The notes under the pieces are model-generated. The model saw only the letters and a list, made by a program, of their open reading frames with translations. It made no database searches and had not been told where the DNA came from. From positions 1 to 43,777 of the forward strand of contig JACQVB010000123.1 of the NCBI GenBank assembly GCA_016209985.1: a stretch of DNA of 43,777 nt. The letters run 5' to 3'. The DNA is from Gemmatimonadota bacterium (GTDB lineage: Bacteria; Gemmatimonadota; Gemmatimonadetes; Gemmatimonadales; GWC2-71-9). Position numbers and translations under genes: made by a program. Of this stretch, positions 10,750-12,180 are shown piece after piece. Position 1 is the stretch's first letter; each line of letters opens with the position of its first letter.

Positions 10750-11781
10750 CTAAGCTATCAGCGCCGCACGCCGCCGCAAGATGACGGTTTCGCGTAAGGC
10801 AGTCACATCGCCCATCAGCGCGCTGAAATTGTCCAGGCTGAGACTCTGGTCGCCATCGCTGCGGGCACGGTCAGGATCGGGATGGACTTCGACCATCAGG
10901 CCATCGGCACCGGCCGCCACCGCCGCCAACGCCAGCGGCAGCACCAGATCGCGCCGGCCAGCGGCGTGCGAAGGATCGACGATCACCGGAAGGTGAGTCT
11001 CCGCCTTGAGCACCGGGATCGCGCCGATGTCCAGCGTGTTTCTGGTGGCTCGCTCGAAGGTGCGAATGCCGCGCTCGCAGAGAATGACCCGGCGGTTGCC
11101 GCAGGACAGCACGTACTCGGCGGCCAGCAGGAAATCCTCGATCGTGGCCGCCATTCCGCGCTTGAGCAGGACCGGTTTCTCCGACTCGCCCACCTCGCTC
11201 AGCAGTGAGAAGTTCTGCATGTTGCGCGCGCCGACCTGCAACACATCGGCGTAGCGGCTCACCAGCCCGACATGGCGGGTATCCATCACCTCGGTCACCA
11301 CCGGCAGCCCGGTGCGCCCGCGCGCCTCGGCCAGTAGCTCGAGCGCCTGGAGGCCCAGTCCGCGGAAGGAGTACGGCGAGGTACGAGGCTTGAAGGCGCC
11401 GCCCCGCAACGCCACCGCACCAGCCTGTTTCACCGCCAATCCGGTTTCCAGCAGCATTTCCCGGCCCTCGACCGAGCAGGGGCCCGCAATGACGGCGAAC
11501 TCCCCATTCCCCACGCTGCCCTCGCCCAGCGGGATCACCGTGGGACCGGCCGCGAACTCGCGGCAGGCAAGCTTGTAGGGCTTCTCTACCGGCATCACGG
11601 TCTCGACGCCAGCCATGGTGACCAGAGCCAAATCCCGCAGCCGATCTTCATCGCCGATGCACCCGATGATGGTGCGGGTCTCGCCCTTGGAGATGTGCGG
11701 CTTGAGACCCATTTCGGTGACCCTCTCGATGACTGTTTGGACGTCTGCTTCTGACGCATCCGAACGAAATACGATGACCAT
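10750..11781 (-). CDS. aroF: 3-deoxy-7-phosphoheptulonate synthase (DAHP synthase, type I-beta)
   Basis: First step of the shikimate pathway: PEP + erythrose 4-phosphate to DAHP, leading to Phe, Tyr and Trp. The 343 residues divide into an N-terminal ferredoxin-like regulatory domain (1 to about 70, starting [21 protein letters not shown]), known in this subclass to mediate Tyr/Phe feedback inhibition, and the TIM-barrel catalytic domain. Motifs are AGPCSVE (99-105), [33 protein letters not shown] and [10 protein letters not shown], all typical of TIGR01361. AGGAGA lies 5 bases before ATG 11781. Upstream lie a terminator hairpin, an aromatic-codon leader peptide and a promoter, so transcription is probably attenuated by charged aromatic tRNA levels in addition to allosteric control. 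Confidence 0.96.
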
Positions 11782-11791
11782 GGTCTCTCCT

Positions 11792-11824
11792 GGAAAACGA
11801 AAGGCCCCGCTGGAGGGCGGGGCC
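11792..11824 (-). terminator. Attenuator: intrinsic terminator in the aroF leader
   Basis: Read leftward, GGCCCCGC and GCGGGGCC form an 8-bp GC-only stem (11817-11824 with 11803-11810) around a 6-base loop, followed by TTTCGTTTT. The T-run ends about 10 bases before the aroF start codon, so it can stop transcription before the gene. The 5' arm GGCCCC can alternatively pair with GGGGTC at 11884-11889 inside the leader peptide gene. Confidence 0.85.
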
Positions 11825-11862
11825 GCTGATGAATCGACGCGAGTTGGGACTAGGCTACTGGC

Positions 11863-11940
11863 TCACACCCGCGCGCCACCGGCGACCCCATGGGGGTACC
11901 AGTAAAAAAATCGATACGAAGCGCGCACGGCGTGTGTCAT
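11863..11940 (-). CDS. aroF leader peptide (aromatic amino-acid attenuation)
   Basis: A 25-codon reading frame, too short for routine gene calling: ATG 11940 to TGA 11863. Codons 9-16 read Tyr-Arg-Phe-Phe-Tyr-Trp-Tyr-Pro (11893-11916), so six of eight are the three products of the pathway begun by aroF. The codons at 15-19 also form a small hairpin ACCCC-CAT-GGGGT. A ribosome waiting at the aromatic codons would open that hairpin, and the freed GGGGTC can pair with the 5' arm of the downstream terminator, allowing read-through. This follows the classical trp/phe model. The pairing was found by eye and not folded. The -10 box is only 9 bases upstream, so the peptide is probably translated from a nearly leaderless transcript. 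Confidence 0.85.
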   Translation of the reverse strand: MTHAVRASYRFFYWYPHGVAGGARV

Positions 11941-11949
11941 AGGAATTTC

Positions 11950-11978
11950 AGTATACCCACCCCACCCCGCCGCAACAA
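11950..11978 (-). promoter_or_regulatory. Promoter of the aroF leader transcript
   Basis: On the minus strand TTGTTG (-35, 11973-11978) and TATACT (-10, 11950-11955) are separated by exactly 17 bases. The start point is expected within a few bases of leader ATG 11940. The match is close to a sigma-70-type consensus in otherwise very GC-rich DNA. Confidence 0.72.
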
Positions 11979-12013
11979 GTCCGCCGTCAGTCTTTCCCTG
12001 ACACCACCCAGCC

Positions 12014-12085
12014 GATTACGGATTGCGGAGTTCGGATTGCGGAATTTGAACGACTCTAGTTTTGCAATCCGCATTCCGCACTCGG
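12014..12085. repeat. Hairpin with 7-bp unit (GATTGCG) between tRNA-Thr and aroF
   Basis: The left arm is GATTACG, GATTGCG, GAGTTCG, GATTGCG, GAATTT. The right arm (12062-12085) is the complementary TTGCAATCCGCATTCCGCAC. It lies 24 bases beyond the tRNA-Thr 3' end and could terminate that transcript. It also sits about 35 bases upstream of the aroF promoter. Confidence 0.85.
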
Positions 12086-12108
12086 AGGCGGCGGGGAAAG
12101 GGGAGAAG

Positions 12109-12180
12109 AGCCACCGGTCGGACTTGAACCGACGACCGCTCGATTACGAATCGAGAGCTCTACCACTGAGCTACGGTGGC
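12109..12180 (-). tRNA. tRNA-Thr(CGU)
   Basis: The acceptor arms GCCACCG and CGGTGGC pair, and the D arm (GCTCAGTGGTAGAGC) and the T arm (GTCGG-TTCAAGT-CCGAC) are canonical. The anticodon stem CTCGA/TCGAG encloses the loop TTCGTAA, giving anticodon CGU, which reads ACG threonine codons. The 3' CCA is not encoded. Confidence 0.96.

Follow-up and report, generated by a model that had tools for sequence, protein, structure and literature searches.

The region in front of aroF in a Gemmatimonadota genome raises the question of whether the first step of aromatic amino acid synthesis could be regulated there through a translated leader peptide. The window, i.e., the whole stretch of DNA analyzed, comprises 43,777 nucleotides of a Gemmatimonadota bacterium (contig JACQVB010000123.1 of assembly GCA_016209985.1) and has a GC percentage of 64.6%. 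A preliminary description of the window had proposed that aroF is attenuated here, in a bacterium that is not a proteobacterium, through one peptide sensing Phe, Tyr and Trp together, and this mechanism is strongly supported by the comparative evidence. Judging from the sequence comparisons, we consider it highly probable that a ribosome-mediated transcription attenuator controls aroF according to the supply of aromatic aminoacyl-tRNAs.

The aroF leader region

The presumed regulated gene, aroF, is located on the minus strand (10750–11781), as are all the other features of the locus. Its product of 343 amino acids matches the NCBIfam profiles PRK08673/TIGR01361 with a score above the cut-off, and we take it to be a 3-deoxy-7-phosphoheptulonate (DAHP) synthase of type Ib. 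The gene is preceded by a Shine-Dalgarno sequence (AGGAGAG, 11785–11791), and the 1 kb that follows it holds no tyrA, pheA or trpE gene in the same orientation. Upstream of the leader there is a tRNA-Thr gene on the same strand. In the stretch that separates this gene from the promoter (12018–12085), words like GCAATCCGCATTCCGCA occur in both orientations; a repeat search of 11990–12110 returned no inverted pairs.

Between the tRNA-Thr gene and aroF, a -35-like box TTGTTG (11973–11978) is separated by 17 bases from the -10 box TATACT (11950–11955), the end of which lies 9 bases from the leader ATG. The -35-like box is poor, matching the consensus at three of six positions, and the promoter was absent from the output of a simple consensus sigma-70 scan. 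The leader peptide gene (11863–11940) encodes MTHAVRASYRFFYWYPHGVAGGARV in 25 codons, from the ATG at 11940–11938 to the TGA at 11865–11863. Six of its codons are aromatic (positions 9, 11, 12, 13, 14 and 15), and the control codons 9–15 (11896–11916) read Tyr Arg Phe Phe Tyr Trp Tyr. Segment 1, ACCCC (11893–11897), can pair with the GGGGT of segment 2, TGGGGTC (11884–11890), in a protector hairpin, while segment 2 has the left arm of the terminator as its other possible partner. The intrinsic terminator hairpin, GGCCCCGC-CCTCCA-GCGGGGCC (segments 3 and 4, 11824–11803), has a perfect, GC-rich stem of 8 pairs and is followed by the T-rich tail TTTCGTTTTC (11793–11802), the T-run of which stops about a dozen bases 5' of the aroF ATG (11781–11779). 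These elements had been pointed out in the preliminary description: TTGTTG-17-TATACT is present exactly as given there, the ORF listing confirmed the 25-codon peptide with its six aromatic codons, terminator prediction recovered the GC stem and T-run before aroF, and both ACCCC-CAT-GGGGT and GGGGTC/GGCCCC are found in the sequence.

Some of these features stand out in the window itself. When the 300 bases upstream were shuffled 3000 times with dinucleotide composition preserved, no shuffle contained six aromatic codons in a stretch of eight codons, and eight shuffles contained five. In addition, the leader RNA is more stably folded than its shuffles (z -2.6). The 7-bp pairing between the peptide gene and the terminator is not significant in the window sequence by itself (p 0.6 against base shuffles), and a permutation test over relatives was therefore used instead; only across relatives is the pairing significant.

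Leader and terminator are conserved and co-vary in Gemmatimonadota

Of the 102 genomes of the family, 101 gave DAHP synthase-like matches, as did all 395 sampled genomes of the phylum. Comparison of aroF upstream regions in Gemmatimonadota, which the preliminary description had recommended, was carried out with 116 homologues taken mainly from the top of the identity ranking and thus not representing a random sample. Leader ORFs with at least four, five or six aromatic codons in eight were present in 79, 50 and 24 of these regions, respectively, when 2.0, 0.2 and 0.0 were expected from dinucleotide shuffles. The leader MPHSAAFTSYYFTPLLTESGGR precedes aroF in a genome of the same order as that of the window (G352). 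A clear leader is missing from roughly one in four of the 116 homologues, and in a genome of the same genus (G001), the aroF of which is 79% identical, there is neither leader nor terminator at aroF. No more than three aromatic codons are reached upstream of 19 DAHP synthases of the family that are more distantly related, mostly the paralogue; the second copy of the window genome is one of these 19. One supported clade of a 66-row protein tree takes in most of the attenuated genes together with unattenuated members such as the G001 gene, while aroF genes followed by trpE form a separate lineage of three members. No leader was seen at the four genes from deep-branching members of the phylum (f11) or at the f9 loci that were examined.

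Two aroF relatives from other phyla were also observed. One from Acidobacteriota (Bryobacterales; L073, 2341–2500) has the leader MACFYASSFSYRFWHFA, TATAAT nine bases 5' of the ATG, and a terminator, and is possibly an attenuator outside the phylum. The other, from Oscillospiraceae (L075, 930–1117), has the leader MNTPAVNAVYFYFTFICTSR and a long hairpin ahead of the gene.

Among 82 leader-terminator pairs from the relatives, the left arm of the terminator finds its complement in the segment that follows the aromatic codons. The mean score of true pairs was 22.0, compared with 16.9 (sd 0.43) for mispaired ones, and none of 5000 permuted re-pairings was as good, a figure which is no strict probability as related sequences are not independent. 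The pairing is realized in three co-varying versions, GGGGCC/GGCCCC, GGGAGCC/GGCUCCC and CACGGGCC/GGCCCGUG. The antiterminator duplex mostly starts 7–12 bases past the last aromatic codon, which is where the front edge of a stalled ribosome is expected.

The promoters are conserved as well. In 32 of 89 relatives a TANNNT box is found 4–13 bases, mostly 6 or 7, 5' of the start codon together with a good -35 box (TTGACA or a five-of-six match, 16–18 bases before the -10 box), and six control windows further upstream contained three such patterns in all; since start codons were picked partly with the -10 box in view, this spacing result is somewhat favored. Shine-Dalgarno-like motifs precede 5 of the 89 leaders, and none was found ahead of the leader ATG in the window. 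The conserved promoters would put the transcription start at or adjoining the leader ATG, so that the leader mRNA is probably leaderless; in the window, transcription probably starts at the ATG or within about 3 bases of it. The aroR transcript of Corynebacterium glutamicum is reportedly leaderless. In Sinorhizobium meliloti, the first codon of the trpL (rnTrpL) mRNA is the ATG of the peptide gene (PMC7298713).

Leader codons match the operon content

Leader composition was compared with operon content in 80 genomes, where a same-strand gene for prephenate dehydratase (pheA) or prephenate dehydrogenase (tyrA), or trpE, was counted as a partner if it lay no more than 1 kb downstream of aroF. 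When aroF has no partner (n = 46), the aromatic codons of the leader are 30% Phe, 52% Tyr and 17% Trp. Ahead of aroF-tyrA (n = 26), 81% are Tyr and 1% Trp; ahead of aroF-trpE (n = 3, one lineage), 80% are Trp; and ahead of aroF-pheA, a small group (n = 5), 67% are Phe. When partner labels were shuffled within taxonomic families only, p was 0.0013 for the presence of Trp, and the Tyr share was equaled in none of 20,000 shuffles. By both composition and label shuffling, the control codons match the pathway product of the operon.

The absence of a pathway branch is reflected similarly. Leaders of partnerless aroF genes contain Phe codons in one of the eight genomes without a detected prephenate dehydratase (PF00800) and in 32 of the 38 others (Fisher 0.0002, within-family p 0.0004). 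No PF00800 match was obtained in the window genome (G000) or in G056, G063, G076 and G097, the completeness of which is 90–99%; these bacteria may be Phe auxotrophs or rely on an unrelated enzyme, or the gene may fall into a gap of the draft. The window genome is the sole exception, having Phe codons in its leader with prephenate dehydratase undetected, and this draft of 95% completeness may simply miss the gene.

Phe-rich leaders with terminators also precede solo pheA genes in several relatives. In G001, which has no attenuator at aroF, pheA has a Phe-only leader, MTRAFTFAFFFFGFPNGGREGQRAQ, with a GTG start and a terminator (L239, about 2275–2145, minus strand), and similar Phe-rich leaders lie ahead of pheA in G029, G211, G173, G210 and G162. 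The pheA gene of G153 has a terminator and no clear Phe leader, and in 11 genomes no separate Trp leader was seen at trpE. As to codon choice, TTT and TAT make up 53% and 47% in the leaders compared with 18% and 9% in aroF genes, a preference that may make stalling sharper or simply mirror intergenic base composition.

Probable attenuation, its alternatives and known systems

With the well-studied trp and pheA attenuators as a model, we infer the transcription start, the transcription and translation of the leader, ribosome stalling and the change in read-through as follows. RNA polymerase would begin transcription with the leader ATG or one to two bases 5' of it, and a ribosome initiating on the nearly 5'-terminal ATG would trail it. 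When any of the charged aromatic tRNAs is short, the ribosome would wait at codons 9–14 and mask segment 1 (ACCCC), whereupon segment 2 (UGGGGUC...) could pair with the left arm of the terminator (GGCCCCG) and allow read-through into aroF. When all three charged tRNAs are plentiful, the ribosome would move past segment 2, the 1:2 hairpin would re-form behind it, and the terminator would form, leaving aroF off. More likely than not, Phe, Tyr and Trp would all count in the window leader.

Folding of the leader under a stalled ribosome, another proposal of the preliminary description, indicated that the terminator arm flips near the last aromatic codon. The transcript was folded as it would be before the right arm is made, with the ribosome placed codon by codon; equilibrium folds stand in here for a kinetic process, and the results depend on the assumed ribosome footprint. 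With a 9-base front, the predicted sequestration of the terminator arm in the window is 0.60–0.67 when the A site is at codons 9–14 and falls from codon 15, compared with about 0.04 without a ribosome. A weak antiterminator is predicted already at codon 15, the last aromatic one, except with a short footprint. For a ribosome on the stop codon of the window leader, sequestration is 0.10–0.13 or about 0.5, according to whether RNA that the ribosome has passed is allowed to pair. In the average over 82 attenuators, sequestration stays at about 0.8 as long as the ribosome has not reached the last aromatic codon, where it is 0.74; four codons further on it is 0.27. Co-variation and folding thus both support mutually exclusive antiterminator and protector pairings, the support being weak for the window alone.

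Several other explanations of these features can be considered. A short ORF could have arisen by chance in GC-rich intergenic DNA, and the terminator could merely end transcription of the tRNA-Thr gene, which is upstream on the same strand and the transcripts of which need an end. This is very improbable given that leader conservation is far above that of shuffles, that leader composition tracks operon content, and that leader and terminator co-vary. The least probable explanation is a T-box, riboswitch or protein-mediated (TRAP-like) attenuator with an incidental ORF: a terminator between promoter and gene would suit it, but conservation is seen in the ORF and in its potential to pair with the terminator, and not in a fixed RNA fold. 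Searches against Rfam returned only tRNA for the whole window at the gathering score (no leader, riboswitch or T-box), nothing credible for the leader region up to E 5, and no amino acid leader, riboswitch or T-box match at 14 related loci.

The leader peptide might also act by nascent-chain arrest, sensing free aromatic amino acids rather than stalling codon by codon on uncharged tRNA. Stalling of leader peptides in response to a free aromatic amino acid is known, TnaC sensing free Trp (PMC8429421). Among the relatives, however, residues differ in order and spacing and nothing but the kind of aromatic codon is retained, a pattern that fits codon sensing and not a specific arrest sequence; furthermore, arrest at high amino acid levels with the same pairing scheme would presumably have the wrong sign for a biosynthetic gene, and we regard this explanation as quite improbable. 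A small chance is left that, besides attenuation, the peptide or the short RNA ending at the terminator acts in trans, in the manner reported for S. meliloti peTrpL and rnTrpL. The leader RNA there likewise begins with the ATG of the small ORF (PMC7298713), but outside the aromatic cluster the window peptide is largely accounted for by RNA pairing.

Ribosome-mediated attenuation as proposed for the window would extend a classical mechanism to a phylum for which no report was found. The open-access literature searched contained no paper on Gemmatimonadota, leader peptides and attenuation, which is weak evidence as subscription papers were mostly outside its scope; the searches also found neither Tyr-codon attenuators nor a publication that connects leader composition with the operon partner. 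As far as these searches reach, the class-wide Gemmatimonadota system, the three-way leaders, the Tyr-only leaders and the partner-matched composition are new. We lean towards a class-wide regulon of leaderless attenuators, in which the leader of the first step would integrate Phe, Tyr and Trp and evolution would rewrite the codons along with the operon partner, Tyr-only aroF-tyrA attenuators included. The leader codons differ with operon arrangement and with the absence of a pathway branch, which suggests that the regulatory code of the pathway is readable from DNA, the codons naming the amino acid to which each operon answers. If so, regulation in mostly uncultured bacteria would become predictable, and Tyr-only leaders would widen the known amino acid specificities of attenuators.

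The novelty claimed in the preliminary description stands in part. Attenuation of aroF outside proteobacteria has already been reported from C. glutamicum and predicted in Acholeplasma; neither system is from Gemmatimonadota or has been described with a three-way leader. In C. glutamicum, a ribosome-mediated attenuator reportedly controls aroR-aroF (Neshat et al., 2014, as cited in PMC11802643 and PMC4046766). Its leader contains Phe-Tyr-Phe and reportedly answers to Phe and not to Tyr (PMC11802643). Like the window leader, aroR has clustered aromatic codons ahead of a DAHP synthase gene outside proteobacteria, but it is actinobacterial, Trp is not mentioned, and the two are likened by function only. 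The Tyr codon of the C. glutamicum leader is reportedly without effect (PMC11802643). The Gemmatimonadota leaders form a natural set of variants in which to study how an attenuator weighs several amino acids. In Acholeplasma, uORFC-13-1 is a predicted attenuator uORF before aroF, adjoining an intrinsic terminator; it has a Phe-coding U run and a ribosome binding site, and its 24 examples come only from Acholeplasma and environmental sequences (PMC8632094). The trpL (rnTrpL) of S. meliloti resembles the predicted window start in its ATG-start mRNA, but it responds to Trp only, belongs to the trpE(G) operon and functions in trans (PMC7298713). The pheL and trpL leaders of proteobacteria follow the same logic of 1:2, 2:3 and 3:4 pairing with stalling at control codons as proposed here; they respond to a single amino acid at end-branch genes, whereas the window system, unmatched by Rfam models, would act at the common first step.
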